Source of the DNA: Candidatus Fiminaster equi | Lineage (GTDB): Bacteria; Bacillota_I; Bacilli_A; RFN20; CAG-826 | Assembly: GCA_018064745.1 (NCBI GenBank) | Contig: JAGHUR010000058.1 | Span: forward strand, 1-37,086 | Direction: 5' to 3' | DNA: 37,086 nt | Part shown: positions 7,339 to 33,489 of the stretch, in pieces | Layout: each line of letters starts with the position of its first letter | Position numbering within the stretch: position 1 is the stretch's first letter | The notes under the pieces: generated by a model | Seen by the model: only the letters and a program-made list of their open reading frames with translations | Database searches by the model: none | What the model was told of the DNA's origin: nothing | Program-made: the position numbers and the translations under genes

Positions 7339-8616
7339 ATGACTTTTGAAGAACATCTTAAAAAGTATTTAGACGAAAACGAAATTAAATCATTAGTTTC
7401 CTCTTTCAATGAGAAAGAAAAGAAAGCTATATTTTTAAATACAAACAAGATGAGTGAAAAAACTTTACTAGATCTTTTCCCAACTCTCAAACCTCATCCT
7501 GTTGTACCAAACGGATTTATATTTGATAAAGATGAAATCCAACTTGGCAAAAAGGTTTACCACGAGCAAGGTGCCTATTATATTCAAGAACCATCTGCTA
7601 TGCTTGTCGCACATTTACTTAATGCAAATAAAAATGACATTGTTTTGGATCTTTGTGCAGCACCTGGTGGAAAGACAATTCAAACAGCCCTAAAAATGGA
7701 AAATGAAGGCTTAATAATTGCAAACGATTTATCAAAATCAAGAGCTAATGTTTTGCTCTCAAATATTGAACGCCTAGGAATCAAAAATACTGTTGTAACT
7801 TCATTAGATTTTTCTACTGTAAAAAATCAATTTCAAAACTACTTTGATAAGATCATTTTAGACGCCCCATGTTCAGGGTCTGGAATGTTTAGAAAGTCTG
7901 ACGAAATGAAGTCTGATTGGACATATGAAAAAGTACTTAAAAATTCTGCTATTCAAAAAGACTTAATTTTGATGTGCTATTCTATGCTTAAAGAAGGCGG
8001 CACAATGGTCTATTCGACATGCTCGTATTCATATGAGGAAGATGAGGAAATAATTGGGTTTTTACTCGAAAAAACCACCGCAAAACTCCAGTATATTGAA
8101 AAAATCAATGGGGAATTTAGATCTAAAAAATATCCAGAAACAATTCATTTATTCCCATCTAAATTTGATGGAGAAGGCCACTATATTGCCATTATTAAAA
8201 AGCCAGGAAATTTAACTAAAAATTCATTTGAAAAAATTGAGACAAAACGTACCATAAAAGGCAAAGGAAATTTAAATGAAATTCAAAAGTTTTCGCTTAA
8301 TTATTCTTTACCAGAAAAGTTCATAAATTTATCGCTTAGACCAGGCTTATTTTTAAGTTCAAAAATTGGTGAAAAAGAAGTCCCTTCACACCACATTTCC
8401 CATGCCTCAAATATAGACAAATCTATTCCTTTAAATCAAGAGGGAGTCATTAAATATTTAAGAGGCGAATCAATAAATAAAAAATATCCAGACGGCTACT
8501 ATTTTGTTAGCTATCTAGATATGAATCTTGGTGTCGTCCATTCGGTGAACGGAACACTTAAAAATCTTTATCCAAAAGGATTAAGAATTAACGCTGATAT
8601 CAAAACGAGTTTCTAA
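7339..8616 (+). CDS. 16S rRNA m5C methyltransferase, RsmF/NOL1-NOP2-Sun family
   Basis: This 425-aa cytoplasmic SAM-dependent RNA cytosine-C5 methyltransferase probably acts on 16S rRNA. Motif I is DLCAAPGGKT (104-113). Motif IV is DAPCSGSGMFRK (175-186), whose Cys178 is the release cysteine. Motif VI is STCSYS, with Cys228 as the nucleophile. The C-terminal 100 residues resemble the RsmF pre-PUA/PUA-like region, so RsmF-type is preferred over RsmB (no NusB-like N-terminus). It has no Shine-Dalgarno and appears leaderless. Its 3' end overlaps the convergent acyltransferase gene by 36 bases. The exact target cytosine cannot be read from sequence. Confidence 0.88.
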   Translation: MTFEEHLKKYLDENEIKSLVSSFNEKEKKAIFLNTNKMSEKTLLDLFPTLKPHPVVPNGFIFDKDEIQLGKKVYHEQGAYYIQEPSAMLVAHLLNANKNDIVLDLCAAPGGKTIQTALKMENEGLIIANDLSKSRANVLLSNIERLGIKNTVVTSLDFSTVKNQFQNYFDKIILDAPCSGSGMFRKSDEMKSDWTYEKVLKNSAIQKDLILMCYSMLKEGGTMVYSTCSYSYEEDEEIIGFLLEKTTAKLQYIEKINGEFRSKKYPETIHLFPSKFDGEGHYIAIIKKPGNLTKNSFEKIETKRTIKGKGNLNEIQKFSLNYSLPEKFINLSLRPGLFLSSKIGEKEVPSHHISHASNIDKSIPLNQEGVIKYLRGESINKKYPDGYYFVSYLDMNLGVVHSVNGTLKNLYPKGLRINADIKTSF

Positions 8617-9402
8617 TTTCTTTCTCTTTTCTGACATCTTAAGAGCATAAATATAATCTTTATCTTTTACTTTTAACTTATTAACGTATTGATCAGTTTC
8701 ATCTTTAAGCATTGGCGCAAGTTCAGTTGTATTATAAGCTTTTGCTTCATCAACACTCATTTTCTTAAAATATGTAAAGAAATATGGGTATTTTTTAACA
8801 TATGAGCCTTTATCAAGAACTCTAAAGGAGCCATAGGCTGCGCCAATTAAAAGAGGAACTCCAGCCATTTGAGCAATCTTTAAAGTTCCAGGATGGAAAT
8901 CTAAACATGGTTTTGTAGGATCTTGGTTTCTAGTTCCTTCAATATAGATTAAAACTGATGGTTTTTCTTGATCCTTTAAATAAGAAACTATGTTTCTAAT
9001 TTGAGCAATTTGACTCATAAGGTTTTCTCTATCGAGCGGGAAGCAATCAATAGCTTTAGCTACTTTGCCAACAAATGGCATTTTAAATACTTCTTTTTTA
9101 CAAACAAATGTTAATGGCTTTTCGCTAGCTGCAATCATTGCAAGAGGGTCAAATAAAGAATAGTGATTTGAGATAACTAAACACTTCTCATCAAGGTTAT
9201 CGTACATCTCAGCATTTTCGATTAAATAATCAACGTGAAAACGTTTAAAAACGAATCTAATTTCTTTTCTCACCACTTTATAGCGTTTCTCAATTGGATA
9301 TTTTTCCGGATGTCTTGCGTATCTACACATATAAAATATGTGATAGAAAAGAATTGGGAAAGCACAAATTAAAATTGCTTTAATAAACTGAAGGATTTTC
9401 AT
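8581..9402 (-). CDS. plsC: 1-acyl-sn-glycerol-3-phosphate acyltransferase (PlsC family)
   Basis: This 273-aa membrane-associated acyltransferase transfers the second acyl chain onto lysophosphatidic acid in phospholipid synthesis. It has an N-terminal hydrophobic segment (about 5-25). The catalytic H-x4-D box is NHYSLFD (His80, Asp85). FPLDRE is at 121-126, EGTR at 155-158, and a Pro-rich motif IV is near 182-184. AACGGAGG precedes the ATG, and the start overlaps the ftsK stop (TAATG). Its end overlaps the convergent rsmF-type gene by 36 bases, so any terminator would lie inside that gene. The substrate could be another lyso-lipid. The plsC symbol reflects the family. Confidence 0.87.
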   Translation of the reverse strand: MKILQFIKAILICAFPILFYHIFYMCRYARHPEKYPIEKRYKVVRKEIRFVFKRFHVDYLIENAEMYDNLDEKCLVISNHYSLFDPLAMIAASEKPLTFVCKKEVFKMPFVGKVAKAIDCFPLDRENLMSQIAQIRNIVSYLKDQEKPSVLIYIEGTRNQDPTKPCLDFHPGTLKIAQMAGVPLLIGAAYGSFRVLDKGSYVKKYPYFFTYFKKMSVDEAKAYNTTELAPMLKDETDQYVNKLKVKDKDYIYALKMSEKRKKLETRFDISVNS

Positions 9403-12092
9403 TATTCATTTCCTCCGTTACTAGGATCATCTGGAATAAAGGTTGATTGTTCAATAGAACCAATTTGTGGTTCGTTATTAATTTCAGCATGAATCAAAAC
9501 TTTATTGCCTTTGGCACTTGCATCTGGTTGTTCAGCGACAATGCCTTCTTTAATAAGTCTAGCGAATATTCTTCCAGCACGTGGGAATCCCATGCCAAAT
9601 GAGCGTTGAATGAATGAAATTGAGCAAGTATCACGTCTCATGATTTGATCTTTGATATCTTGATATTGTTGTTCTTCAGAAGCTTCTTTATCGATTGCTT
9701 CAACTGCAGGTTCATTAGAACCTTTCTTTTCTTCTACGTGATCTTCTAAGTCAAGGAAATATGGATCATATTGAGTTGGGTAATGTTCCTTAAGGAAGCT
9801 ACAAACTCTATTGATTTCACAATCATCAACATAGCAGCCTTGTAAACGAGGTCTATTAGAACGTGATAAAAGTGGACATTCGATAAGCATATCACCATGA
9901 CCAAGTAACTTTTCAGCACCACCTTCACCAATGACTGTTGTTGAGTCAATTGCGGATGCAGACATAAGTGCAACACGTGTTGAGAAGTTTGATTTAATTG
10001 TACCATCAATGACATCTGTTGAAGGTCTTTGCGTAGCAATAACTAAGTGAATACCAGCAGCACGAGCCTTTTGGACGAGTCTTTGGACTAATGCTGGGAC
10101 TTCCTTAACTTGTTCAACTAAATCAGCGTATTCATCAACAAACATGACAATATATGGAAGAGGTTGAACGTCGTGTTCACGGCACCAGACGTTAAATCCT
10201 TTAATGTCTCTATATTTGTGTTCAGAGAATAAGTTATAACGTCTTTCCATTTCATCAACGAGTTTCTTCATTGCGTTATAAGTTTTTCTCATATCTGTAA
10301 TGATTGGGCAAAGTAAGTGAGGAATGTCTTCATAATAAGACATTTCAACTTTCTTAGGGTCAACTAAAATAATCTTTAACTCTTCTGGTTTATTTCTCAT
10401 GATGAGAGTTAAGATTGTAGCGTGAACTGTAATAGATTTACCTGAACCAGTTGTACCTGAAACAAGCATATGCGGGAAATCGGCAAGGTTTGCGTGTTTA
10501 AGTTCACCGCTAATTCCCTTACCGAAAGGAATGTTCATTAAGTACTTTTCGCCAGTTGGCATTGCAGCTAAAGATTCTCTTAAACCAACGTTAGTCCTAA
10601 TTTCATTAGGAATTTCAAGACCAGAGGTAGATTTACCAGCAACAATTGTTTCAAATCTTACTGGAACACCACCAAGTCTAATGGAAATATCATTGATATA
10701 TCTTTGGACTGCTGAAATAGAAACATCGAAATTTGTTTGGATGTCATATCTTGTAACAGATGGGCCAACTGTATGACCGACAACTTGAGCACCAACTCTA
10801 AGTTGCTCAAATGTTTTATTAATAATTTCAGTTCTTTCTGCACAAGAACCTTCATTTTTAGTAGCATCATCTGCAGCTTCATGAAGATCTAATAAATCAA
10901 GAGAAGGATAAATATAGTTTTTAACTAAGTTAGCTTTTGGTTGAGGTTTGTGCAAGTAATCGACTTCAACTTCAACTGGAGCTTCTTCCTTAACAGGTTC
11001 TGGTACTGGTTCTGGTACTGGTTCTGGAATTACTGGAGCAACAACAGATTCAACAATAGGAGTAACTTCAGGAACTGGAATTTCAGGAGCCACTTCAACT
11101 TCTGGAGCAGCTTCAATTACTGGTTCTTCTAGAACTGGTTCTTCTTTAGAAGAAATACCTTCAAATCTAGCTTCAGTAAATGTTGGTCTAATTGGTTCTG
11201 GGTTAGAATTAACATCTTCTATTTTTCTAACCATTGAATCTTCAATAATATTGTCATCAGATAAGACTAAACGAGCTTTCTTAAGGGAATTATCATTATT
11301 GATAGCATTTGTATGAAAATCTTCATAAATTGGTTTTGAAATAAGTTTTTCTTGAATAACTGGTTGAGGAATTTCCTTATTAACTGATTTATTTTCTTCA
11401 ACAATTGGAGCAACACTGATTGGCTCTTCTTCATTTGATAATTCAACTTCTTTGTATTCGTCATCTTTTTTAGCGTTTTTGTTTTCTTTTCCAATTTTGC
11501 TTCTAATTAAAATGAAAAGTGCTTTGACTTGTTTATTTAAAAGCATTAGTAAGCCACCAATAAAGAAGACCCAACATACAATGTTGAGACCAACAGGAGT
11601 GATAGCACTATTAATGGATCCAGCTAAAATAAAACCAACATAACCACCACCAAGTTGTGGGTTAAATGGAGATGAATTAGCCTCTCTAATTTGTTTTAAA
11701 ATGTTAGTTGAATTAGAAAAAATAAGGAATCTTGATGTTCCATCAACAGCTGTTGAATAACCATCTAAAACTAAACCATTATAAGTGACACCGATTGATG
11801 CCCAATGAGATGAAAGAATGACAAAGCATACAATCATGACAAAGAAGCCGCCAATTGATAAACCAAGTTTAAACTTGAGCAATTTTTTCTTAAAAATAAG
11901 GAATAAGCCAAGAATGATTAAAAATGGCATTAAGATCCAAAAGCCAACAAAACCTAAAGCTGTTGTAATAGCAATAGAAAGGAAGGCAAATGGTGTGTTA
12001 TTAGAAAGCATTGTAACGAGTGCTAAAAGAATGAAGCAGATGCCTCCAACAATAGTGATTGAGTTTCTGGTAATCTTTCTTTTCTCGTTCAT
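9402..12092 (-). CDS. ftsK: DNA translocase FtsK/SpoIIIE
   Basis: This 896-aa septal DNA pump clears and aligns chromosome termini at division. There are four to five N-terminal membrane segments within residues 10-190. A variable linker follows, with a Pro/Glu/Val-rich stretch (about 315-380, including repeated PEPVPEPV). The alpha/beta motor comes next, with Walker A GTTGSGKS (about 545-552) and a DEYADLVE Walker B region. The C-terminal winged-helix gamma domain (about 810-870, QRSFGMGFPRAGRIF) reads KOPS/SRS polarity sites. It has no Shine-Dalgarno: a -10-like TAAAAT (12108-12103, minus) lies 10 bases before the ATG, so it may have a nearly leaderless transcript. The gene follows a terminator hairpin after the RNase J-like gene. 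Confidence 0.95.
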   Translation of the reverse strand: MNEKRKITRNSITIVGGICFILLALVTMLSNNTPFAFLSIAITTALGFVGFWILMPFLIILGLFLIFKKKLLKFKLGLSIGGFFVMIVCFVILSSHWASIGVTYNGLVLDGYSTAVDGTSRFLIFSNSTNILKQIREANSSPFNPQLGGGYVGFILAGSINSAITPVGLNIVCWVFFIGGLLMLLNKQVKALFILIRSKIGKENKNAKKDDEYKEVELSNEEEPISVAPIVEENKSVNKEIPQPVIQEKLISKPIYEDFHTNAINNDNSLKKARLVLSDDNIIEDSMVRKIEDVNSNPEPIRPTFTEARFEGISSKEEPVLEEPVIEAAPEVEVAPEIPVPEVTPIVESVVAPVIPEPVPEPVPEPVKEEAPVEVEVDYLHKPQPKANLVKNYIYPSLDLLDLHEAADDATKNEGSCAERTEIINKTFEQLRVGAQVVGHTVGPSVTRYDIQTNFDVSISAVQRYINDISIRLGGVPVRFETIVAGKSTSGLEIPNEIRTNVGLRESLAAMPTGEKYLMNIPFGKGISGELKHANLADFPHMLVSGTTGSGKSITVHATILTLIMRNKPEELKIILVDPKKVEMSYYEDIPHLLCPIITDMRKTYNAMKKLVDEMERRYNLFSEHKYRDIKGFNVWCREHDVQPLPYIVMFVDEYADLVEQVKEVPALVQRLVQKARAAGIHLVIATQRPSTDVIDGTIKSNFSTRVALMSASAIDSTTVIGEGGAEKLLGHGDMLIECPLLSRSNRPRLQGCYVDDCEINRVCSFLKEHYPTQYDPYFLDLEDHVEEKKGSNEPAVEAIDKEASEEQQYQDIKDQIMRRDTCSISFIQRSFGMGFPRAGRIFARLIKEGIVAEQPDASAKGNKVLIHAEINNEPQIGSIEQSTFIPDDPSNGGNE

Positions 12093-12146: not shown

Positions 12147-13820
12147 TTATTCTATTTCAGCAAAAATTGGTAAAATAATAGGTGTTTTATTAAGGCTTCT
12201 TCTAATTGCTTTAAAGACTATGTCTTTAGTAGCCTCTTCTAAATAGGAAATAGAATAATGTTCTTTTGCAAGTTCCATTTCAATCGTAGAAATAAATAAA
12301 CGGGTTATTTCTTTCATAAGTGGTTCGTTGTCTTTTAAGAAAACGAGACCTCTTGATTGAACATCTGGCCCTGCGACAATTTGATGTTTAGATTTTGAAA
12401 TTGTTGCAGCTAAAATGATGACGCCATCATCAGAGAATTTTTGTCTTTCTTCAATGACTTCGTTTTGAATATCACCAATGCCCTTACCATCAACAAGTAA
12501 ATCTCCTGAGATGACTTTGTTTGATGAAAGTTTTCCAAATCCAGCTTCAAATTCAAGAATATTTCCGTTATCGACAACAAAAATGGAATTGTGATTTAAT
12601 CCAACATTCATACTTACTGCAAGTTTTGCAGCGGCAAGAAGTTGTTTAAATGATCCGGAAATTGGAACGAAATATTTTGGTCTAATGAATGAAAGAATTT
12701 GTTTAATATCTTCTTCTTGAGCATGCATTCTAACGAAGTCTTTTTTAACACGAATGATTTTACAATCATTGTGATAAAGTTCATCGAGTGCATCTGTTGT
12801 AGAAACTTCATTTTCTGGAGTAATGTGATTTGCGAAAATAAAGGTATCTTTTTCAGTTAAAAATACAATCTTTTCATCGTTGTTTCTAGAAGCAAGAAGT
12901 GCAACTTTAGAATTGAGTTTTGCACCAAATCCTGTGATGAAAATAAGTAATTCTTTTGGATTAATTCTATTAACATCTTCAATGGATAAAATTGAATTCT
13001 TATCGACTTTTAAATAACCTGATTTCATAAGGTTGGTGATTAATTCGCGACTTGATTCATCATAAGGTATGATTTTTCTTCCAGCATATTTGTTTGCCTT
13101 ATTGATTACATCAATAATATTAAATAAATCTGGAGTATCAATAGCTAAAAATGCTCTACCATTGATATCAAATAATTCCTTTTTGATAAGAGAAATTAAA
13201 CGATAGTTTGGAGCACAATAACCAGGTTTTTCACTAGCTTCAGCATCCATAAGTAAAACTAATGTTTTTTGATCACAAATTCTACCGAGTTTAGCAAAGT
13301 CATTTGTAAATCCTGGAACATTGTCGTTATTTATAACGAAATTACTTAAATAAATGATATTTCCTTGATCTGTTGAAATAGAAACGCCAAATGATTCAGC
13401 AAAGTTACAACAGGTTGAAAATAAAGAAATTAATCTATTTCCGATACGAATATCATCGGATGGTTTAACAATAACAAAAGAATATTTGCGATAATCAATA
13501 TGATTGTGGACACAGAATGAACAAAAGAAAGTCTTGGTTGTGTTTGTACAATAAATTGGAGCAGGAACTCTATCATAAATGTATGGTAAAGCTCCGATTA
13601 TTGAGTCATGACCGTGTGTTAAAAAATAACCTTTAACTTTGCTTTTATTTGCAAGCAAATAATCAAAACGAGGGATGATATAATCAACACCTGGTTTTGT
13701 CTTGTCTGGGAACTTAACACCACACTCGATAACATAAATCTCGTCGTTAACTTCGACAAGAGTCATGTTTTTGTATAGTTCATCTAGTCCGCCAAGAGTA
13801 ATAATTCTAATCTTGTCCAT
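12147..13820 (-). CDS. RNase J-family protein with degenerate catalytic motifs (J2-like pseudo-nuclease)
   Basis: This 557-aa protein has the full RNase J architecture: metallo-beta-lactamase, beta-CASP and C-terminal domains, with the family N-terminus GGLDELYKNM and the VDYIIPRFDYL segment. The metal ligands are mostly lost. The HGHxDH box reads HGHDSI (69-74), lacking the Asp and last His. The THS(I/L)PD motif reads TCCNFAES (about 136-143). The bridging Asp of GDF is Asn160 (LSNF). The first His of HxSGHA is absent while His366 remains (VRMHAQEE). The PxHGE His is Ser388 (PISGS). Known RNase J2 subunits also show weakened active sites and act in complex with J1. This one probably scaffolds or binds RNA rather than cleaving it. 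An AAAGGA Shine-Dalgarno is present, and it sits 2 bases after the DUF1667 gene. Confidence 0.85.
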   Translation of the reverse strand: MDKIRIITLGGLDELYKNMTLVEVNDEIYVIECGVKFPDKTKPGVDYIIPRFDYLLANKSKVKGYFLTHGHDSIIGALPYIYDRVPAPIYCTNTTKTFFCSFCVHNHIDYRKYSFVIVKPSDDIRIGNRLISLFSTCCNFAESFGVSISTDQGNIIYLSNFVINNDNVPGFTNDFAKLGRICDQKTLVLLMDAEASEKPGYCAPNYRLISLIKKELFDINGRAFLAIDTPDLFNIIDVINKANKYAGRKIIPYDESSRELITNLMKSGYLKVDKNSILSIEDVNRINPKELLIFITGFGAKLNSKVALLASRNNDEKIVFLTEKDTFIFANHITPENEVSTTDALDELYHNDCKIIRVKKDFVRMHAQEEDIKQILSFIRPKYFVPISGSFKQLLAAAKLAVSMNVGLNHNSIFVVDNGNILEFEAGFGKLSSNKVISGDLLVDGKGIGDIQNEVIEERQKFSDDGVIILAATISKSKHQIVAGPDVQSRGLVFLKDNEPLMKEITRLFISTIEMELAKEHYSISYLEEATKDIVFKAIRRSLNKTPIILPIFAEIE

Positions 13821-13822
13821 AA

Positions 13823-14167
13823 CTATTCCTTTATTTCTTTTGTAGAGATGACATCAACGCCACTACCACAAACATTCTTAATAACAACATCACCAATTTT
13901 GACTGGTACTTTAACTACTGTTTTTCTAATTTCATCCATTACTGGGAAGATAAGTTCCTTTGGAACTGGTTCTTTAGTTTTAACTGGAAGTCTACATTCT
14001 GATATTGATGCAATTGCAACTGTTGAAGTTACCATTCTAACTGGATGAGTAAGTTCGGCTTTGGCATACATTGCACCTCTAGGACAGAAGTTTCCTGTAA
14101 CATTTAAATTATCGTCAACACTTAAGTGACAACCACGTGGACAAGTAATACAAATAAGTTCTTTCAT
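13823..14167 (-). CDS. DUF1667 cysteine-motif protein of the GlpA-like cluster
   Basis: This 114-aa cytoplasmic protein of the DUF1667 family (PF07892 type) has four N-terminal cysteines, Cys6, Cys9, Cys13 and Cys28, in CxxCPRGCxL and FCPRG contexts. They could hold an Fe-S cluster or zinc. In Bacillota this family is found as the third member of GlpA-like dehydrogenase and FAD oxidoreductase clusters, as here. The start overlaps the preceding gene's stop by one base, with GGAGGAG upstream. A role as an electron-transfer or assembly partner is inferred from context. No reaction is known to me. Confidence 0.82.
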   Translation of the reverse strand: MKELICITCPRGCHLSVDDNLNVTGNFCPRGAMYAKAELTHPVRMVTSTVAIASISECRLPVKTKEPVPKELIFPVMDEIRKTVVKVPVKIGDVVIKNVCGSGVDVISTKEIKE

Positions 14168-15423
14168 TATTTTTTCTCCTCCACGTAAACTTTGATTTCG
14201 TTAGACTCTTTTTTAAAGAGATCTTTAGATAAATGTACAATTTCCATTTCGCTTGGAACTATTGCAGGTTTAAAGATTTTCTTGATGATATTATTACCTT
14301 CGGTAATAAGAATATTAATATCTTTCATAGGTTTAGCAACTCTAAACTTAAATGAAAGTGAATCTTTAACATCATCAAGGAAAACTTTTTGAGGAACAAC
14401 ATAGTTGATTCCAATGCCAGGATTTACATCGTAAATATGGCCAGTGTGTTTTAATTCACCATTTAGGTAACTAATAGCACCCACTGCAGCTTCTCTAGCT
14501 TCTTCTACAACGTAATCTACTAAATCGTGAACATGTAAAACGTTTCCTGCAGAGAAAATACCTGGGATTTCAGTTTCCATGGCTTGATTAACTTTAGCAC
14601 CTCTAGTTTTAGATAAACTTAAAGGTAACTTATTAAATAAGTCAACGTTTGGTAATAGACCTACTGAAAGAAGTAAACAATCGCATTCAAAGTCAATTTC
14701 AGTTCCTTCAATAAATTGCATCTTTTCATCAACTTTTGCAATTGTCACCTTTTCAAGGTGTGATTCACCAGTTACTTTTTTAACGGTGTGGCTTAAATAT
14801 AAAGGAATGTTGTAATCTTTAAGACATTGAACGATGTTTCTATTAAGTCCTGCTGAATAAGGCATAAGCTCTGCAACACCTAAAACTTTTGCGCCTTCAA
14901 GTGTCATTCTACGAGCCATAATAAGACCAATATCACCACTGCCTAAAATAAAGACACGTTTACCAACTAAGTAGCCATAGCAGTTAGCGAACAATTGAGC
15001 TTGGCCTGCAGTATAAATACCTGATGGTCTATCACCTGGAATTTGGATAGCACCAGCATTTCTTTCATAACAACCTGTTGTAAGAATAATAGCTTCAGCT
15101 TTAACTTCAACAAGTCCATCTTTAGCATTTGAATAAGTTACGACTTTGTCGTCACTTATAGATAAAACATTAGACTCTAATGCATAAGAAATTCCGAGTT
15201 CATCAACCTTTTTAGAAAATCTAGTCATAAACTCTGGACCAGTGAGTTCTTCTTTAAACTCATGAAGTCCAAAGCCATTATGAATACATTGATTTAAGAT
15301 TCCGCCAAGATAAGCATTTTTCTCAATGATTAAAATATCTCTCACACCGAGTTCATATGCTTTAATGGCTGCGGCCATTCCTGCAGATCCACCACCAATA
15401 ATAACTAACCTATGGTTAATCAT
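14167..15423 (-). CDS. NAD(P)/FAD-dependent oxidoreductase of the GlpA-like cluster
   Basis: This 418-aa two-dinucleotide-binding flavoprotein has an FAD motif GGGSAG (10-15), a GGILNQCIHNGFG segment with a cysteine near residue 46, and a second nucleotide-binding motif GSGDIG. A C-terminal FAD motif reads GIFSAGN. It belongs to the oxidoreductase group paired with GlpA-like dehydrogenases and DUF1667 proteins. The likely role is to pass electrons between the dehydrogenase's Fe-S centre and NAD(P)H or another carrier, which is inferred from the conserved three-gene arrangement. CAAAGGAG precedes the ATG. It overlaps the upstream gene by 4 bases (ATGA). Confidence 0.83.
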   Translation of the reverse strand: MINHRLVIIGGGSAGMAAAIKAYELGVRDILIIEKNAYLGGILNQCIHNGFGLHEFKEELTGPEFMTRFSKKVDELGISYALESNVLSISDDKVVTYSNAKDGLVEVKAEAIILTTGCYERNAGAIQIPGDRPSGIYTAGQAQLFANCYGYLVGKRVFILGSGDIGLIMARRMTLEGAKVLGVAELMPYSAGLNRNIVQCLKDYNIPLYLSHTVKKVTGESHLEKVTIAKVDEKMQFIEGTEIDFECDCLLLSVGLLPNVDLFNKLPLSLSKTRGAKVNQAMETEIPGIFSAGNVLHVHDLVDYVVEEAREAAVGAISYLNGELKHTGHIYDVNPGIGINYVVPQKVFLDDVKDSLSFKFRVAKPMKDINILITEGNNIIKKIFKPAIVPSEMEIVHLSKDLFKKESNEIKVYVEEKK

Positions 15424-16862
15424 TTCTTTTCTCCTTTGATGTCATATCTAACAACAAATGAGTCATGCTTTTGGAACATAACTTGGTTTAGAGGAATATT
15501 AAACTTCTCCGCAATGATTTTAGTTACTAAAGGTTGGCAGAAACCACCTTGACACTTACCAAATCCTGCTCTTGTACGTTTTTTAACGCCTTTAATTGTC
15601 TTTGGAGGCACGGAAGTATTCATCTCGAATAAAATCTCACCTAAAGATACTTTTTCGCAGTTACAGATGATTTTTCCATAATCTGGATTTTCAGCGATAA
15701 ATTTGTTGCGTTCTTCTACTGACATCTCGTTAAGATGGGCTCTGCGTTTAACTCTAGGATTAAAGTTTGGATTTGGCACTAGATCAATAACTTTAGAGAC
15801 AAATTCATTCACAACATATTCTGCAATTGCAGGAGATGATGCAAGACCTGGAGATTCAATACCACTTAATGTAATAAAGTGATTATCACATTTTGCATAT
15901 CTAATAATGAAGTCATGAGTATTTGGAGTTGGTCTACTACCAGCGAAAGTACGAATGACTTGATTAAATGGAATTGATGGCACCATTTGTAAAGCTTGGC
16001 GTTTAATTTCATCTAATGTGAACTTGTCTGTTGAGACATCATCTTTAGATGCCATTGCTTCTGCGGATGGACCAACAAGGAAAGTTCCGCCAATTGATGG
16101 AGTAACTAAAATACCTTTTCCTTTTTCACTTGGAAGAGGGAAAATTGTGTGTTTTACTAAATCATCACAATAGTGATCCAAAATGAAATACTCACCTTTT
16201 CTTGGGGTAAGGAAGTAATCAATTGGCTCCACCATTTTATGGATTTCATCGGAGTAAATACCTGCAGCATTGATAACAATCTTTGTTTGGTAGGTATTTC
16301 CAGATTGACAAATAATGTTATAGAAACCGTTGTCTTTATTAATTAGTACTACTTTTTCATCTAAGAATAACTTAGCACCATTATCAACAGCGTTTTCGAT
16401 AGCATGAACCGATAAAGTGAAAGGATTCACTATGCCAGCGGTTGGAGCAAAAAGTGAACCCTTCACTTCTTTTGATAAATTTGGTTCGAGTTTTAAAGTT
16501 TCTTCGGCGTTTAAGATCTTTACAGGTACGCCGTTAATTGCACTTCTTTCAGCAAGTTCCTGTAAAACAGGAATTTGTTCATCATAAAGAGCAACTGTTA
16601 AAGAACCAATACGTTTCATTTCAACATCTAGTTCATCGCAGACTTGATCCATCATCTTGTTACCAAGAGCATTAAGTTTAGCCTTAAGTGTGCCTGGAAC
16701 TGGGTCATAACCTGAGTGAACAATGGCAGAATTGGCCATAGTTGTAACGTTACCAACATCTGGTTCTTTTTCAATAACTGCCACTGATAATTGGTAGCTT
16801 GAAAGTTTGCGCGCTATAAGCGAGCCAACGATTCCAGCCCCAATTACAGTAACATCAAACAT
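15420..16862 (-). CDS. GlpA-like FAD-dependent glycerol-3-phosphate dehydrogenase with BFD-like [2Fe-2S] domain
   Basis: This 480-aa protein has an N-terminal FAD motif (GAGIVGSLIARKL, from residue 8) and a DAO fold. The C-terminal BFD-like domain carries the cysteine set CNC (about 400-402) and CQGGFC (about 435-440) for a [2Fe-2S] cluster. It resembles the anaerobic GlpA subunit and COG0579 dehydrogenases, oxidising glycerol-3-phosphate to dihydroxyacetone phosphate or a related 2-hydroxyacid. Hydroxyglutarate-type alternatives cannot be excluded. It starts 20 bases after pnp with no Shine-Dalgarno. A TATAAA (16879-16874, minus) lies 11 bases before the ATG, so it may have its own near-leaderless promoter in addition to read-through from pnp. 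Confidence 0.82.
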   Translation of the reverse strand: MFDVTVIGAGIVGSLIARKLSSYQLSVAVIEKEPDVGNVTTMANSAIVHSGYDPVPGTLKAKLNALGNKMMDQVCDELDVEMKRIGSLTVALYDEQIPVLQELAERSAINGVPVKILNAEETLKLEPNLSKEVKGSLFAPTAGIVNPFTLSVHAIENAVDNGAKLFLDEKVVLINKDNGFYNIICQSGNTYQTKIVINAAGIYSDEIHKMVEPIDYFLTPRKGEYFILDHYCDDLVKHTIFPLPSEKGKGILVTPSIGGTFLVGPSAEAMASKDDVSTDKFTLDEIKRQALQMVPSIPFNQVIRTFAGSRPTPNTHDFIIRYAKCDNHFITLSGIESPGLASSPAIAEYVVNEFVSKVIDLVPNPNFNPRVKRRAHLNEMSVEERNKFIAENPDYGKIICNCEKVSLGEILFEMNTSVPPKTIKGVKKRTRAGFGKCQGGFCQPLVTKIIAEKFNIPLNQVMFQKHDSFVVRYDIKGEKK

Positions 16863-16882: not shown

Positions 16883-19048
16883 TTATTTTCTATGACCTTT
16901 TTTGAAAGGTTTCTTTTCAACTGCTGGTTTTTCAACATATCCAGCTGGTTTCTCTAAGAATTCTCTATGAGAAACTTTGACTTTTCCGTGGTCATCAATT
17001 TCGCAAACGCGAACTTTTAAGACATCGCCAACTTTGACTTTGTCACTTGCTTTTTCAACATAACCCCAGTCAAGTCTAGAGACATGGCATAAGCCTTCGC
17101 AATTACCAAATAATTTGACGAATGCACCATAGTCTTCGACTCTAGTGACTTCACCTTCGTAAACTTCACCAACTTTTGCTTCACGAACGATATTTTCAAT
17201 CATTGCTTTTGCTTTGTTGATCATTTCACGGTTCATATGGTAAATAACGATATGTCCGTCATCATCGATATCGATTTGGACGTTATCACATTGTGCAATA
17301 ATGTCGTTGATGACTTTACCGCCAGTACCGATAACATCTCTAATCTTATCGACGTCAATTTGCATCTTATCAAGTTTTGGTGCAAATTCTGCAACGTCTG
17401 CTCTTGGTTCAGCAATGGCTTTAGCCATAACTTCACGAATTTGAGCACGTGCTTTGTTAGCTTGAGCTAATGCTTCTGCTAAAACTTCTCTTGTAACACC
17501 ATCGATTTTGATATCCATTTGAAGTGCTGTAATACCTTTTGCAGTACCTGCAACTTTGAAGTCCATATCACCGAAGTGATCTTCAAGACCTTGAATATCT
17601 GTAAGGATTGTGTATGGATTCTTTCTTAAGTCGCCATCTGAGATAAGACCCATAGCGATACCAGAGACCATTCCTTTAATAGGAACACCGGCTGCCATAA
17701 GTGACATACAACCTGCACAGATGGATGCTTGTGATGAGGAACCGTTTGATTCGACAACTTCAGCAACTGTACGAATTGTGTATGGGAATTCTTCTTCTGA
17801 TGGGATAACTTGAGCTAATGCTCTTTCAACAAGGGCACCGTGTCCAACTTCACGACGTGCTAAGACACCGATTTTTCCTGTGCCACCAACACACCATTGT
17901 GGGAAGTTATAGTGATGAATGAAGCGTTTTTCTTCTTCTGCTGTTAAATCATCTAAAACTTGTTTGTCGCTTAATGGACCAAGGGTTGTAGCTGAGATAA
18001 CTTGTGTTTGTCCACGTGTGAACATGGCAGAACCATGAACTCTACGACCTAAAAGGTCAATTTGAGCATCGAGTGGACGAACTTCATCGGTCTTACGTCC
18101 ATCTGGTCTGACTTTATCTTCGATAATAAGTCTTCTGACTTCTTTGTGGACAAGATCTTCTTGAATGTTGTGGACTTGTTGAACTGTCTTTGCGTCTGCA
18201 CCATTTGCAGCATATTCTTCTTCAATAGCCTTTTCAACTTTTTCAATATTTGCTTCTCTTTCGAGTTTGTCTTTTGTTGAGACAGCTTTACGTAAATCTT
18301 TATCGGCTTTTGCCTTGACTTCTTCATATAAGTCTTGTGGCATAACCTTAAATTCAATGTTTTTGTTCTTTTCAACGCCAATAGCTTTGATGATCTTCTT
18401 TTGCCATTTACAAAGTTTCTTGACTGCTTCATGACCAAACATTAAGGCATCAAGCATATCTTCTTCTGAGACTTCTTTAGCACCTGCTTCAACCATGTTA
18501 ATAGCTTCTTCGGTACCAGCGACACAGAGGTCGATATCTGATTTTGCTTTTTGTTCTACTGTTGGGTTAATAACAAATTTGCCATCAACTCTACCAACGT
18601 AGACACCTGCGATAGGACCATTGAATGGAACGTCTGAGATACAGACACATAATGATGAACCTAACATTGCAGTAATCTCTGGAGAATTATCATAATCAGC
18701 AGCCATTACTTGAGAAACGACTTGAACTTCATTACGAAATCCTTCAGGGAAAAGTGGACGCATTGTTCTGTCAGTAATTCTACTTGCAAGAATTGCATGG
18801 TAGGATGGACGGGACTCACGTCTTAAGAATCCGCCTGGAATCTTTCCAGCAGCGTACATTCTTTCTTGGTACTCAACTGAGAGTGGGAAGAAATCCCAAT
18901 CGACAGTATGTTGTGACATAGTAACGTTTGATAAAACTACTGTGTCGCCATAACGTACCAAAACCGCAGCTTTTGTTTGCTTGGCAATCTCGCCAGCTTC
19001 GACAACAATTTTGCGGCCTTCGAAATCGAGTTCGAATACTTTTTTCAT
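16883..19048 (-). CDS. pnp: Polynucleotide phosphorylase
   Basis: This 721-aa trimeric 3'-5' phosphorolytic exoribonuclease acts in mRNA decay. It has two RNase PH-like domains separated by an all-helical region, then a KH domain containing GTGGKVINDI (about 565-575) and an S1 domain (about 630-695, YEGEVTRVEDYGAFV). A short basic tail follows. Length is normal. AAAGGAG lies before the ATG. Downstream of rpsO, as in many bacteria, with a hairpin between them. The GlpA-like gene starts 20 bases after its stop with no terminator in between. Confidence 0.97.
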   Translation of the reverse strand: MKKVFELDFEGRKIVVEAGEIAKQTKAAVLVRYGDTVVLSNVTMSQHTVDWDFFPLSVEYQERMYAAGKIPGGFLRRESRPSYHAILASRITDRTMRPLFPEGFRNEVQVVSQVMAADYDNSPEITAMLGSSLCVCISDVPFNGPIAGVYVGRVDGKFVINPTVEQKAKSDIDLCVAGTEEAINMVEAGAKEVSEEDMLDALMFGHEAVKKLCKWQKKIIKAIGVEKNKNIEFKVMPQDLYEEVKAKADKDLRKAVSTKDKLEREANIEKVEKAIEEEYAANGADAKTVQQVHNIQEDLVHKEVRRLIIEDKVRPDGRKTDEVRPLDAQIDLLGRRVHGSAMFTRGQTQVISATTLGPLSDKQVLDDLTAEEEKRFIHHYNFPQWCVGGTGKIGVLARREVGHGALVERALAQVIPSEEEFPYTIRTVAEVVESNGSSSQASICAGCMSLMAAGVPIKGMVSGIAMGLISDGDLRKNPYTILTDIQGLEDHFGDMDFKVAGTAKGITALQMDIKIDGVTREVLAEALAQANKARAQIREVMAKAIAEPRADVAEFAPKLDKMQIDVDKIRDVIGTGGKVINDIIAQCDNVQIDIDDDGHIVIYHMNREMINKAKAMIENIVREAKVGEVYEGEVTRVEDYGAFVKLFGNCEGLCHVSRLDWGYVEKASDKVKVGDVLKVRVCEIDDHGKVKVSHREFLEKPAGYVEKPAVEKKPFKKGHRK

Positions 19049-20818: not shown

Positions 20819-21211
20819 TTATTCTTTTTCTTCTCTTGCCTTGACTACATCAGCATGTTTTAAGCATAAACCGAATGCAACAAGAGAAAGAGTTGTGAAT
20901 ATGTATGCAGGAACTGATAAGGATTTGTATGCATTAGCATCATTTTGGTTAACAGTTGTGAAATGCTCTGCAATTTCACCATACCAAGCTTTCTTGTCAT
21001 CAACTTCATCACTTGGAGCTGAAACTTCAAGCATTCTAAGTTGAGATTGTGCACCTGTTAATGCGACAGATGAGGAAGCATACTTAGCTTTTTGGTATTG
21101 AGCATTGCCGAAACAAATAATGCCTGCTAAAGCTAAACCACCTGTAATTAAAACATATGCGGCAAGGTAAAGTTTTTTCTTATCAATTTTAATCTTTTTA
21201 AGAAAACTCAT
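20819..21211 (-). CDS. Two-helix membrane protein at the end of the starch operon
   Basis: This 130-aa protein has a Lys-rich start, a membrane helix at about 12-32, an external region of about 70 residues, a second helix at about 100-120 and a charged Lys/Glu tail. I recognise no family. Its start overlaps the MsmK-type ATPase stop by one base, with AAAGGAG upstream, so it is firmly part of the sugar-import operon. A role in organising or anchoring the transporter, perhaps with the ATPase's coiled tail, is speculative. Confidence 0.7.
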   Translation of the reverse strand: MSFLKKIKIDKKKLYLAAYVLITGGLALAGIICFGNAQYQKAKYASSSVALTGAQSQLRMLEVSAPSDEVDDKKAWYGEIAEHFTTVNQNDANAYKSLSVPAYIFTTLSLVAFGLCLKHADVVKAREEKE

Positions 21212-22797
21212 TACTTATCTCCTTTTGGTTTTGGACCACGTTTATGTTTAAGTGCTTCAGCTTCTGCAGCTTCTTTCTTTTCGCGTTCCTTGTTGTGTTT
21301 TTCAATATCGACGTCATATTTATGACGTTTAATTGGACTTTTGCCTTCTTCTTTTGCTGGTTCAGCTGGTGCTTCTTCTGCTTTTATAGCTTCTGCTGCA
21401 GCCTTTGCGGCTTCAGCTTCGGCCTTTGCAGCCTCTGCTTCTTCTTTAGCTTTTTTAGCAGCTTCTTCAGCTTCTTTTAAGGCAGCAATTTGCTTTGCAA
21501 GTTCTTCTTGATTAGCATCAGATTTTGGTTCTTCTTTTGCTTCTTCTTCACCACCAGCGTTTTCCTCATCTTCAGGTTGCTCTTCTACTGGAGGAAGGAC
21601 AATAAGTCCTTTGGAATTAACAGCACGTGGGCCTGCAAGTAAGTTCTTTTCATCTTCTGGATCGAAGAAATGCATTGCCTTTGCTTCAAATGATAAGAAA
21701 ACTTCGTTGCCTGGAATAATCTTATCTTTTTCTTCTTGAGTCATGTTGATTGTTGGAATACGAACAATGATCTTTGTATCATCTTTTGTTGTGACGTGAA
21801 CATGAATTTCACTACCCATCATTTCGCAAACTTCAACAGTGACTGGAATTGATGCTTTATCTTGTTTTACAGATAAAGCCATATGTTCTGGACGGACACC
21901 AAGAAGAATTGGTCTAGACTCTATGTCCTTTTTAAGAAGCATATCGCCTTTTTCACCTGTAACAGGGATTTTTACGTCAAATAAGTTAACGCTATAGGAT
22001 TTACCTTCTCTAATAAGTTCAGTATTGAAGGTATTCATCATAGGAGCGCCAATAAATTGAGCAACGAATAAGTTATCTGGCATTTCAAATAATTCAGTTG
22101 GTGTACCAACTTGCATAATGAAGCCATCTCTCATACATACGATTCTATCACCAAGTGTCATAGCTTCGGTCTGGTCGTGTGTAACGTAAATGAAGGTTGT
22201 TTGAATTCTCTTACGAAGTAAGATAATTTCAGCTCTCATTTGGTTTCTAAGTTTTGCGTCCAAGTTAGAGAGTGGTTCGTCCATTAAGAAGACTTTACAA
22301 TCTTTAACCATAGCACGACCGATAGCAACACGTTGTCTTTGACCACCTGATAAGGCTTTTGGTTTACGTGTTAAGTATTGGGTGATGTTTAAGACTTTAG
22401 CAGCCTCAGTAACCTTTTGGAAAATTTCGTCTTGAGAATAACCTTTAATGGTTTTTCCAGTGATTGAATCGGTTCTCACTCTCTTATTAAGACGAAGTGG
22501 GAATGCCATGTTTTCAAAAACGGTTAAATGAGGATACAAAGCATAGTTTTGGAAGACCATTGAAATATGACGATCTTTTGGAAGTAAGTCGTTAACGACT
22601 TCTCCATCAATTTTACAAATACCTTCACTGATGTCTTCAAGTCCAGCGACCATTCTTAAGGTTGTGGATTTACCACATCCTGAAGGTCCGACAAAGACGA
22701 CGAATTCTTTGTCTTTTATATCAAGGTTAAAATCGTGAACAGCGGTCACTTTACCTTGGTAAATCTTTTTAACATTAATTAATTGTACTCTAGCCAT
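21211..22797 (-). CDS. Sugar ABC transporter ATPase, MsmK/UgpC type, with long C-terminal coiled tail
   Basis: This 528-aa cytoplasmic ATPase energises the maltodextrin importer. Walker A is GPSGCGKST (37-45), signature LSGGQRQR (149-156), Walker B VFLMDEP (169-175), and H-loop His208. The C-terminal TOBE/MalK regulatory region runs to about residue 385 (GVRPEHMAL at 300-308). Family members normally end near 365-385. Here about 140 residues follow: an acidic linker, an Ala/Glu/Lys heptad-rich helix (about 430-480) and a basic tail ending GPKPKGDK. The tail is encoded in the same frame with normal codons. AGGAGG lies upstream. It overlaps the small membrane protein gene by one base. Confidence 0.92.
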   Translation of the reverse strand: MARVQLINVKKIYQGKVTAVHDFNLDIKDKEFVVFVGPSGCGKSTTLRMVAGLEDISEGICKIDGEVVNDLLPKDRHISMVFQNYALYPHLTVFENMAFPLRLNKRVRTDSITGKTIKGYSQDEIFQKVTEAAKVLNITQYLTRKPKALSGGQRQRVAIGRAMVKDCKVFLMDEPLSNLDAKLRNQMRAEIILLRKRIQTTFIYVTHDQTEAMTLGDRIVCMRDGFIMQVGTPTELFEMPDNLFVAQFIGAPMMNTFNTELIREGKSYSVNLFDVKIPVTGEKGDMLLKKDIESRPILLGVRPEHMALSVKQDKASIPVTVEVCEMMGSEIHVHVTTKDDTKIIVRIPTINMTQEEKDKIIPGNEVFLSFEAKAMHFFDPEDEKNLLAGPRAVNSKGLIVLPPVEEQPEDEENAGGEEEAKEEPKSDANQEELAKQIAALKEAEEAAKKAKEEAEAAKAEAEAAKAAAEAIKAEEAPAEPAKEEGKSPIKRHKYDVDIEKHNKEREKKEAAEAEALKHKRGPKPKGDK

Positions 22798-22815
22798 AAT
22801 ATAAGAGTCCTCCTA

Positions 22816-23682
22816 TTAACCTTTGACTGCGCCACCAGTGACGCCTTCGACATAATACTTTTGTAAGAATAAGAATAATACAATTACAGGAATTGCAACG
22901 ACGACACCACCAGCACAGAAGTACTTATAATAGCTATCAATATTAGCTTGTGATAACCAAGTTGATAAACCGGTTGCAACGTTAAATCCCTCAGAGATGT
23001 TCTTTGCTAATGTTGCAGCAAAGATGTAATCGCCCCAAGGTCCCATAAATGATGTTAAGATGATGTAAATAACGATTGGTTTACATAAAGGCATAATAAC
23101 CTTATAGAAAACTTGGAATCTATTAGCACCATCGACCATTGCAGCTTCATCAAGTGATTTTGGCATTGTATCTAAGAAGCCTTTGGCTACATAGTAGCCC
23201 ATGCCTGATGAGGCAATAGAAACTAAGATTAAGCCTGGAACAGCATTTTCACCAGTCATACCAAGTGTCTTTAAGACTTCATATAAGACGATCATGGTAA
23301 GGAAGCCTGGGAACATGCCAAGAACAAGCATGACGTTCATCATTGCTTTACGAAGTCTGAAACGGAATCTTGATAAAGCGTAAGCCATCATGATTTGCAT
23401 AATTGTCTGACCAACGCAAACGCATAAGGCGATAATGAATGTGTTGAAATACCATTGTAAGAAGTCGCAATCACCACTAAACAAGAATATAAAGTTATCG
23501 AAACCCCATTTTTGAGGCCAGACATTTCCAGTTAGTGAAGTAGTTGCAACATCAAATGATTGAAGTACTAAAAATATGAATGGGATAATCCATATAATGG
23601 ATATGAGTGTAAGACCGATGTAGGAAGCAATATTTCCAGCACGTCTTCTTCCTGATAAGGAAGCTAATTTTTTAGTAGCCAT
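22816..23682 (-). CDS. Maltodextrin ABC permease, MalG type
   Basis: This 288-aa inner-membrane permease has six predicted helices. It carries the ATPase-contacting EAA loop DEAAMVDGANRFQVFYKVIM. The ATG at 23682 (MATKKL) is chosen because AGGAGG lies 12 bases upstream and it begins 1 base after the MalF-type stop. The longer in-frame extension to 23736 would overlap the MalF-type gene by 53 bases and lacks a ribosome site. It pairs with the MalF-type protein to form the channel for malto-oligosaccharides. Confidence 0.92.
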   Translation of the reverse strand: MATKKLASLSGRRRAGNIASYIGLTLISIIWIIPFIFLVLQSFDVATTSLTGNVWPQKWGFDNFIFLFSGDCDFLQWYFNTFIIALCVCVGQTIMQIMMAYALSRFRFRLRKAMMNVMLVLGMFPGFLTMIVLYEVLKTLGMTGENAVPGLILVSIASSGMGYYVAKGFLDTMPKSLDEAAMVDGANRFQVFYKVIMPLCKPIVIYIILTSFMGPWGDYIFAATLAKNISEGFNVATGLSTWLSQANIDSYYKYFCAGGVVVAIPVIVLFLFLQKYYVEGVTGGAVKG

Positions 23683-23683
23683 A

Positions 23684-25189
23684 TTATTGGAATTCCTCCT
23701 CGTTCTTTGTAGATGGGATGATGTTATAAACAACAACGGAGATCAAGGCAACAACCACGAAGACCATAATACCTATAACAGCGCCCAACGCATAGTTACT
23801 ATCCTTAATAGCTAAGTTAAATAACCATGTAATAAGTAAGTCTGTTTGACCAGCGTTATTTGCCATTGTCTGAGGATGTGGAGCACCACCAGTTAAAAGG
23901 TAAATAACGTTGAAGTTATTCATATTGCCCGTAAATGACGTTAATAAGTACGGGCCAGTAACGAAGAGCATATATGGAAGAGTGATCTTCGTATATTGTT
24001 GCCACTTAGTGGCACCATCAATATTTGCTGATTCGTAAAGGTCGGCTGGAATATTCATCAAAATACCTGTTGTAACAAGCATTAAGTATGGAATACCAAT
24101 CCAGATGTTAATGATAATAACTGTAATACGAGCAACCCATGGAGAAGCATCGTTATCCAAGAAGTGAATTGCTTCACCACCACATTTTACGATGACATCA
24201 TTAATAATTCCGTGGTAGTCAAACATCTTTGAGACATAAAGTAAGGAAATAAACTGTGGAATAGCAATGGACATAACAAGAACTGTTCTCCATACCTTTT
24301 TAAGTTTAATTCCTTTCTTATTAATAAGCATAGCAACCATCATACCTAAGAAGTAGTTTGTGAATGTTGCAAAGAATGCCCAAATAAGTGTCCAAAGTAA
24401 GACTTCTCCGAATGTTGCAGAGAAACTATTTGCTCCGGAATTCCATGAGAATATTTGAGAGAAGTTTGTAAATCCTTGCCAACCGAAAAGGGCGTTAGAA
24501 ACACCATTGTGGTTCGCGTCGTAGTTAGTAAATGCGACGAGAATCATAAAGAAGATTGGAAGGACAGTAAAGATGATAATACCTAATGTAGGTAATGTTA
24601 AAAGTGTCTTATGGAAGTTTTTATCAACAAGAGCTCTTAAATCATCTTTAGATGATGTGAGTTGTTTTTCTTCTTTAAGAATTTGTTCATTGATTCTATT
24701 TTGCTTGATATTTAAGTACCAAGTATAGATGAATGCAACAATAAAGAAGATTGTTAATACACCATAAAGAAGAATCTTGAATGAGTTATCACCATAGATG
24801 ATAGTACCATCATCAAGATGTTGAGGTTGAACTGTACCTAAGGTATTTAATTTGCCAACATAATAACCACCCATGGCAATCATATACCAAATGAATACAA
24901 CCTCCATTACTAGGAATAAAATACCTCTTAACACTTGTTTACGGGTGATATTACCAAAGCCCATAATAAGATAGGAAACTTTAGTTTTATAGTCACCTTC
25001 AATAAATGTCATGACAATATCTCTAAAGAAGATGTAAATACCAATACCGAGTTTTTTGACAGCATTGTAAATGCCGATGCCTAGTTTTTTGAAGAAACCT
25101 GGTATTGCACAAAAGAAGCATTTAAGTTTGTAAACAAATCTTTTGCCTTTAGATAGAGATAGAAGTTCTAAATCTGTATAAGTTTTCAT
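23684..25189 (-). CDS. Maltodextrin ABC permease, MalF type, with extended N-terminus
   Basis: This 501-aa polytopic permease has about eight helices. Two are N-terminal (about 85-108 and 138-160), followed by a cytoplasmic loop and the six-helix core with EAA motif YESANIDGATKWQQYTKITLP. Many Gram-positive MalF or MsmF proteins are shorter (about 290-430). The first 60 residues hold a tandem repeat, KKLGIGIY at 34-41 and again at 45-52, that looks like a membrane-lying amphipathic helix. AAAGGAG precedes the ATG. It lies 11 bases after the binding-protein gene. Confidence 0.9.
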   Translation of the reverse strand: MKTYTDLELLSLSKGKRFVYKLKCFFCAIPGFFKKLGIGIYNAVKKLGIGIYIFFRDIVMTFIEGDYKTKVSYLIMGFGNITRKQVLRGILFLVMEVVFIWYMIAMGGYYVGKLNTLGTVQPQHLDDGTIIYGDNSFKILLYGVLTIFFIVAFIYTWYLNIKQNRINEQILKEEKQLTSSKDDLRALVDKNFHKTLLTLPTLGIIIFTVLPIFFMILVAFTNYDANHNGVSNALFGWQGFTNFSQIFSWNSGANSFSATFGEVLLWTLIWAFFATFTNYFLGMMVAMLINKKGIKLKKVWRTVLVMSIAIPQFISLLYVSKMFDYHGIINDVIVKCGGEAIHFLDNDASPWVARITVIIINIWIGIPYLMLVTTGILMNIPADLYESANIDGATKWQQYTKITLPYMLFVTGPYLLTSFTGNMNNFNVIYLLTGGAPHPQTMANNAGQTDLLITWLFNLAIKDSNYALGAVIGIMVFVVVALISVVVYNIIPSTKNEEEFQ

Positions 25190-25200
25190 GTTTCTCCTTT

Positions 25201-26511
25201 CTAGTCACCGATCATAGTCTCAAGGTTTAGCTCATAGAGCTTAAGTGCAGCTCTTAACTCTGAATCAGTTGATGTAGCTTCGATGGAGCCAACCATTGAT
25301 GAGAGTGTACTAAACCAGCTAGATGGACATTGTCTTTGTGGTTTTGAGTATTCTTGTTGGTCTCTAAGTGCTTTTAAGCCTGGAGAAGACATAACTGTTG
25401 GATTTTGAAGGTCTGCAATGTTTGATGGACCCCAGTTAACAGCGGCAAATCTCTCTAATTGACAAACTTGATTTGATAAGTATCTAGCAATACGTTTACA
25501 AACAGATACTTTCTTTGGATCAGTTTGTGGCTTAACACCGATTAATTTATAACCAGAGAATGAAGAAATGTGATATCTTTGACCATCCACTGTGAAGTAT
25601 GGCATTGGAGCACAACCGAGGTTAGCGCCAAGTAACTTCTCTGCAACAGGGTAGTTCCAGCTACCAGTAACACAGGCAGCAAGACCATTACCGAATTTGC
25701 CAGGAAGGTCATCATTACCGAATACAGAGGCATGTTTACGGATTTCTCTAATACCTTTAGCAGCAATAAAGCCTTTTTCAGTATTATAAGTATCGACGTA
25801 GCCCGAGAATTTGTTAGAAGCATCAATTTCCCATATGGACTCACAATCGAGGCCTTTTGACATAAAGTAAGAGGCTGAATAGAATCCGTTTGCGAATACA
25901 GGATAATTGAAGATTTTATTCTTTTGTTCACATATTGAGACGATGTCTTCAATATTTTGAACTTTATCATCAGGAATAATGGACTTGTCATACATTAAGT
26001 AATAACCGTTATCTGATGTAAATGGGAAAGCGTAGAGTTTTTTGTTGATGGTTGCGGCATCAATACCGACTTGTTCGGTTTCTCTTTTTACAGCAGCTTC
26101 CATTGCTCCAGAGATTGGTGCTAAAGCACCACCTTTTTGAAGTTTTGCTAATTGGTCTTGAGCAAAGACATAAATATCAGCACCATTTTGAACATCTTCA
26201 AGCATTGATGCAGCGGTCTTATCTTCACCAGAAGCATCAATTGAAAGGTTAATCTTATACTTTTGGTTACCGTTTTCATCTTTGGCTTGGTTAACAAAGT
26301 TACCAACTTGAGTCTTAGTTAAGTTAACAATACGTTCATCACACCAAATTCTGATATTGTAGGTTCCTGCGTCTTCGACGCCTGTATCTTCACCGATTCC
26401 ACCATTATCACCTGGATAAGATGGAACAACATAGTTAAAGATAAAGGAACATGAAGCAAGTGAACCAAGTGCTATAGCCAATGCAGAGGCAAGTAATAAT
26501 TTTCTTTTCAT
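25201..26511 (-). CDS. Maltodextrin-binding lipoprotein (MalE-type extracellular solute-binding protein)
   Basis: This 436-aa lipoprotein (lipobox SLASC, Cys21) is of the family 1 extracellular solute-binding type. The start at 26511 (MKRKLL) is preferred over an upstream in-frame ATG because GGGAGG precedes it and the signal peptide then begins correctly. The DIYVFAQDQLAKLQKGGAL and YAFPFTSDNGYYLMYDKS segments are typical of maltose/maltodextrin-binding proteins. It would bind malto-oligosaccharides released by the surface amylases and deliver them to the MalF/MalG-type permeases encoded directly downstream. Confidence 0.9.
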   Translation of the reverse strand: MKRKLLLASALAIALGSLASCSFIFNYVVPSYPGDNGGIGEDTGVEDAGTYNIRIWCDERIVNLTKTQVGNFVNQAKDENGNQKYKINLSIDASGEDKTAASMLEDVQNGADIYVFAQDQLAKLQKGGALAPISGAMEAAVKRETEQVGIDAATINKKLYAFPFTSDNGYYLMYDKSIIPDDKVQNIEDIVSICEQKNKIFNYPVFANGFYSASYFMSKGLDCESIWEIDASNKFSGYVDTYNTEKGFIAAKGIREIRKHASVFGNDDLPGKFGNGLAACVTGSWNYPVAEKLLGANLGCAPMPYFTVDGQRYHISSFSGYKLIGVKPQTDPKKVSVCKRIARYLSNQVCQLERFAAVNWGPSNIADLQNPTVMSSPGLKALRDQQEYSKPQRQCPSSWFSTLSSMVGSIEATSTDSELRAALKLYELNLETMIGD

Positions 26512-26528
26512 ATCGCTTATCCTCCCTC

Positions 26529-27029: not shown

Positions 27030-27043
27030 ATTGTTTTTCCTCC

Positions 27044-30172: not shown

Positions 30173-30182
30173 ATCTTTCCTC

Positions 30183-33481: not shown

Positions 33482-33489
33482 TTTTCCTC

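Follow-up and report, generated by a model that had tools for sequence, protein, structure and literature searches.

An RNase J2 orthologue without its metal site in Candidatus Fiminaster equi, probably a non-cutting partner of RNase J1

Studies in different bacteria disagree on whether RNase J2 acts as a nuclease in its own right or lends RNase J1 structural support. The J2 of Staphylococcus stands beside an intact J1, has an altered HxHxDH motif and has lost H390 (S. epidermidis, structure 6k6w; S. aureus rnjB). S. aureus showed no phenotype when the first two His of its J2 site were replaced, while deletion of J2 had one and was harmful, and the authors proposed that the active site comes from J1 and that J2 is structural (PMC3937233). 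The J2 of S. epidermidis keeps three canonical ligands, binds one Mn through H76, H78, H80, H144 and E166 and is weakly active (PMC7864078). A J2 paralogue is also found beside J1 in E. faecalis and S. mutans, and there, in contrast to the dispensable site of S. aureus, J2 is an active nuclease (PMC5383250, PMC6759994), so a silent J2 is no general rule. The E. faecalis J2 carrying H69A, H71A is inactive and binds J1 like the wild type, and the ligands of the second metal are unconserved in J2s (PMC5383250). The C-terminal domain of S. mutans J2 is a protein-interaction domain (PMC6759994). Both J1 and J2 have been reported for all Mollicutes (PMC4014445).

The window analyzed here is a stretch of 37,086 nucleotides from Candidatus Fiminaster equi (JAGHUR010000058.1), taken from a metagenome-assembled genome (MAG) of 893 kb that is about 80% complete. 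It carries an rnjB-like gene (12147–13820), which, like all the genes and motifs located below around it, lies on the reverse strand; its frame of 557 aa is open from an ATG start to a stop. The protein matches the RNase J profile TIGR00649 over its whole length (residues 4–552) with 345 bits, under the curated cut-off of 400, which is a threshold for annotation and not a biological trait; the J1 of the same genome reaches 582. The Pfam profiles for the beta-CASP domain (PF22505), RMMBL (PF07521) and the C-terminal domain (PF17770) all score over their cut-offs, and no separate Pfam match was found in the protein for the metallo-beta-lactamase (MBL) core. Profiles and predicted fold together show a single chain of about 555 aa that combines the MBL, beta-CASP, RMMBL and RNase J C-terminal domains, and the full RNase J domain plan claimed by the sequence-only reading is borne out by the end-to-end profile match and the AlphaFold fold. 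Most J1-invariant positions are replaced in the beta-CASP domain (residues 222–348; 12777–13157), and the C-terminal, dimerisation domain (residues 455–557; 12150–12458) is as conserved in the genus as it is in J1. A sequence comparison with solved structures ranked the RNase J2 chains of S. epidermidis first, ahead of B. subtilis J1.

In a quick maximum-likelihood tree of 35 J1s and 94 J2s, calculated with the ligand columns left out, all J2s, S. epidermidis J2 among them, were split from the J1s by a branch whose support is 100, and the inner forks of the J2 clade are partly weak. Rows had been sorted into J1 and J2 by His390, and the J2 clade is an independent check on this sorting; the change at His390 occurs once on the tree, at the J1/J2 branch. 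The gene order points the same way. The pnp gene (PNPase; 16883–19048; 927 bits to TIGR03591) lies upstream in a common gene row with rnjB, followed by genes for an FAD-dependent glycerol-3-phosphate oxidase/dehydrogenase-like protein (15420–16862), an NAD(P)/FAD-dependent oxidoreductase (14167–15423) and a small cysteine-containing protein (13823–14167). The last of these had no NCBIfam match, and we take it to be DUF1667-like. The neighbourhood with pnp that had been read from the window is thus real: pnp stands four genes ahead of rnjB in the same orientation, and no gap between the two exceeds 20 bases. An ftsK/spoIIIE-type DNA translocase gene (9402–12092) is the next gene downstream of rnjB, and a plsC-like acyltransferase gene (8581–9402) lies beyond it. 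An upstream pnp and a downstream ftsK on the same strand as rnjB are found in the genus and in the distant families f14 and f18 of the class, and rnjB-ftsK without pnp in f11, f20 and f25. The same three genes fill the interval between pnp and rnjB (13823–16862) in all genus loci read, and none of them turned up at this place in the other families inspected. The full-length match, the tree and the synteny thus place the window protein in the RNase J family as a diverged J2, and the tree and the conserved gene order make it the RnjB orthologue and no stray paralogue; tree position and gene order exclude a J1-type or stray RNase J. Elsewhere in the window, positions 21211–36201 hold what look, from the sequence itself, like sugar ABC transporter genes, then genes for large secreted amylase/pullulanase-like proteins and Ig-like lipoproteins, probably a starch-use locus.

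Alignment to 95 J1s showed that two of the seven metal ligands are kept in the window protein, His69 and His71 (J1 H74 and H76). Residues 69–74 (13599–13616) read HGHDSI instead of HGHEDH, with Ser73 for D78 and Ile74 for H79; Cys138 (13407–13409) replaces His142 of THSIPD, Asn160 (13341–13343) replaces the bridging Asp164 and Ser388 (12657–12659) replaces His390 of PxHGE. The HxSGH motif has become FVRMH (residues 362–366; 12723–12737), in which the first His is Phe362, J1 Ser366 is Arg364 and the phosphate-pocket His366 (J1 H368) is retained. The sequence-only reading had named all of these losses, namely HGHDSI for HGHxDH, the missing His of THS(I/L)PD, the missing first His of HxSGHA, Asn160 for the bridging Asp and Ser388 for the His of PxHGE, and the alignment agreed with it residue by residue. 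It had also held that no sequencing slip was involved, which is supported by a MAG from horse faeces (JAKSVH010000001; L003/L112, 86% identical) that reads HHSMCNS at the ligands; this separate MAG with near-identical ligand states, together with full-length open frames across the genus, excludes a frameshift or assembly error. With two of its seven residues, the protein lacks the two-metal ligand set (H74, H76, D78, H79, H142, D164 and H390), and, with Cys138 at H142 and Asn160 at D164, it also lacks the one-metal site of the S. epidermidis type (H74, H76, H142 and D/E164).

The sole other RNase J of the genome (G000) is a J1 on another contig (C14:9037–10668), so the intact J1 that had been expected elsewhere exists. 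It has all seven ligands, in the motifs HGHEDHIGG, THSIPDS, GDFKIDL, HSSGHPSKQE and MPIHGEYR. Intact J1s also occur in the other genomes of the genus whose J2 has lost its site. RNase Y is present in the genome too, as two partial matches on two contigs.

All seven ligands are present in 95/95 J1s surveyed, and the loss in the window protein is therefore beyond chance. Among J2s the count runs from 6/7 down to 0/7, and in J2s generally the second metal site was already partly gone. Outside the genus, in the family and order, H74, H76 and H142 are present in 29/29 J2s and D164 in 26/29, while H79 and H390 are gone; in their residues these proteins resemble S. epidermidis J2, whose solved structure has a single metal. 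In the genus, the first metal site is broken in 22 of the 23 J2s, the exception being an early branch (G002) with H74, H76 and H142. H142, D78, H79 and H390 are lost in all of the other 22 and D164 in most of them, several sublineages have E, D, R, Y, F, N or Q in place of H74/H76, and several relatives retain 0/7 ligands. Constraint at the old ligand positions has thus been lost in the genus, where mean pairwise identity is 0.31 at the seven ligand columns vs 0.48 at all columns, as against 0.72 vs 0.40 outside it; random sets of seven columns were as low as the genus ligand columns in 4% of cases, which makes the support moderate (P about 0.04). Judged by its residues, the window protein is in mid-decay, with the metal site gone and two of its His still carried. 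The earlier claim that it is more degenerate than known J2s therefore stands against S. epidermidis J2, but the condition is not peculiar to this protein, being genus-wide, more advanced in the relatives with 0/7 and recurrent in other lineages. Next to the remaining His, Asp72 (J1 Glu77; 13605–13607) is invariant in 22/22 genus J2s. Its role is probably structural, because the residue persists even in J2s that have lost both nearby His (EGND).

Complete or near-complete loss of the ligands is found as well in families f7/f11/f22 and in f26. Small genomes and in-frame TGA codons suggest that f11 and f22 are probably Mollicutes. The HxHxDH motif is wholly lost in four J2s from genomes with in-frame TGA (L160, L161, L177 and L178 in G061, G119, G083 and G101), where NSASYN, NPSSNN, DVKNES and NVKNDN stand in its place, and the J1 motifs beside them are intact in the three genomes in which they were read (G061, G083 and G101). 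In f26, the J2 L175 (G117) is almost without ligands (RFGERT) and sits on a very long branch, apparently an independent loss. The number of RNase J genes also varies: G098 of f18, a family in which several genomes have extra matches, has besides J1 and J2 another RNase J (L173), whose motifs are of the J1 type; the single RNase J found in the 96% complete G138 (L166) is J2-type with 6/7 ligands, its J1 not found there, maybe through an assembly gap; and the single RNase J found in G059 (L179), again with no J1 found, is J2-like with one in-frame TAA.

The gene is maintained by purifying selection. Simple Nei-Gojobori counts among close genus relatives gave dN/dS values of 0.05–0.16 for J2 and 0.02–0.09 for J1, about twice as high for J2, and J2 is present in about 35 of 36 relatives of at least 90% completeness. 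This shows that the J2 protein is needed, and selection does not tell its role. The constraint is unevenly distributed along the chain: identity in the C-terminal domain is 0.46 for J2 and 0.47 for J1, as compared with 0.52 vs 0.81 in the MBL core and 0.41 vs 0.74 in the beta-CASP domain. The fraction of J1-invariant positions kept by the genus J2s is 0.81 for the C-terminal part (a figure based on five positions), 0.41 for the MBL core and 0.22 for the beta-CASP domain.

AlphaFold predicted a complete RNase J fold for the window protein (pLDDT 88), and the sister J2 L014, with 0/7 ligands, was modelled with the same complete set of secondary structures (pLDDT 86). A Foldseek search with the window model returned the integrative model of the B. 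subtilis RNJ2-RNJ1 complex (9a5v) at the top, then J1 and J2 crystal structures. Residues 450–463 are of low confidence in both models yet include the invariant Arg459; a conserved segment that is unsettled in the modelled monomer would fit an oligomer interface, which is only a hint.

Taken together, the window gene quite probably encodes the J2 of a J1-J2 complex, a metal-free, non-cutting and structural subunit; the absence of activity, the binding to J1 and the structural role are what we infer from the findings above. In such a complex, the J1 encoded elsewhere would supply the sole active site. The RNase J fold and the C-terminal domain of J2 would pair with J1, and possibly with other degradosome proteins, which is the proposed reason why J2 is retained, and J2 would keep J1 in the right oligomeric state and shape its exo- and endonuclease activity. 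The path to this state may have led from a two-metal site of the J1 type, through the general J2 state in which H390 and the His of HxSGHA are gone and the single-metal J2 of the order (H74, H76, H142 and D164), to the metal-free J2 of the genus.

Other readings account for parts of these data. Loss of the ligands and evolution faster than that of J1 are what a decaying gene without a role would show, but this reading is scarcely credible for a gene whose frames are open at full length in the genus, whose dN/dS is 0.05–0.16, which keeps its gene order and its presence in about 35/36 near-complete relatives and whose C-terminal domain is conserved like that of J1; dN/dS, retention and synteny exclude a pseudogene. 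It is highly unlikely that the RNase J scaffold has been recycled for a new role unrelated to J1. The 23 genus J2s share 51 invariant positions, some of them unlike J1 (e.g., Asp371), but many of these, such as glycines, prolines and C-terminal motifs, are common to J1 and other J2s, and the gene is always accompanied by J1 in the genus. Somewhat less improbable, yet still unlikely, is a window J2 in which His69 and His71, perhaps with Cys138 or Asp72, continue to bind one metal and sustain a weak or unusual nuclease activity, as in S. epidermidis J2, which is active with one Mn and an altered site (PMC7864078). The window protein and its closest relative both retain the two His, whose persistence may allow weak binding of one metal, and Asp72 is invariant in the 22 genus J2s. 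However, the window protein has Ser, Cys and Asn where the S. epidermidis protein has the third His of HGHEH, H144 and Glu166, and Asp72, which persists even in EGND, more likely serves the structure. Moreover, Tyr, Phe, Glu, Arg or Asn stands at the two remaining His positions in close relatives, and this variability argues that the site is free of selection.

The phosphate pocket raises a further possibility, which is doubtful as the main role and compatible with a structural J2 as an added function: J2 might bind RNA 5'-ends without cutting, its pocket holding or sensing monophosphorylated ends for J1. The pocket His (J1 H368) is retained in 21/23 genus J2s, and the neighbouring J1 Ser366 column (12729–12731), which is Ser in 24/29 J2s outside the genus, is Lys or Arg in 20/23 of those inside it. 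Against this, the genus J2s keep only 22% of the J1-invariant beta-CASP positions, and the RNA channel is perhaps not intact; in S. epidermidis J2, mutations of the phosphate pocket had limited effect (PMC7864078).

The proposed non-cutting partner of J1, which the sequence-only reading had put forward as a candidate regulatory or scaffold subunit, matches the S. aureus J2, whose structural role is independent of its active site (PMC3937233), and the comparisons made here support that reading well. The idea of a structural J2 has thus already been published, and what is new is a metal site that was erased naturally and recurrently; a literature search, mostly outside subscription journals, yielded no description of complete metal-site loss in a J2. 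The window protein differs from S. epidermidis J2 in having Cys for H144 and Asn for E166 and in lacking the third His of the motif. It resembles the J2s of E. faecalis and S. mutans in being a paralogue beside J1, and differs from them in that those are active. Its best structural likeness is to the J1-J2 complex of B. subtilis, to which it was compared by predicted fold alone. Lineages that erased the J2 site and kept the protein amount to natural separation-of-function mutants, for which close relatives whose one metal site is intact provide ready controls, so that the structural role is directly testable. They also call into question the assumption that both RNase J proteins of a minimal genome are enzymes, as 4/4 sampled Mollicutes-like J2s have lost most or all ligands.

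In principle, a similar arrangement is known from CPSF100/CPSF73 and INTS9/INTS11, in which a metal-free pseudonuclease is paired through its C-terminal part with an active MBL/beta-CASP paralogue (PMC7980224). The window model gave weak Foldseek matches to CPSF100/INTS9-type chains, and the window J2, with its lost ligands and constrained C-terminal domain, is a candidate pseudonuclease partner of this kind. CPSF100 and INTS9 differ in subfamily, in their C-terminal domains and in the process they serve (3'-end formation), and their origin is presumably separate. With these differences in mind, we tentatively propose, at somewhat short of even chances, that J2 turned repeatedly into a metal-free pseudonuclease among small-genome Bacilli (the genus; the Mollicutes-like f11/f22 with f7; and f26), that the J1-J2 pair of these lineages is the bacterial counterpart of CPSF73-CPSF100 and INTS11-INTS9, and that the J2 of the genus may also keep a remodelled 5'-phosphate pocket that holds RNA ends for J1.
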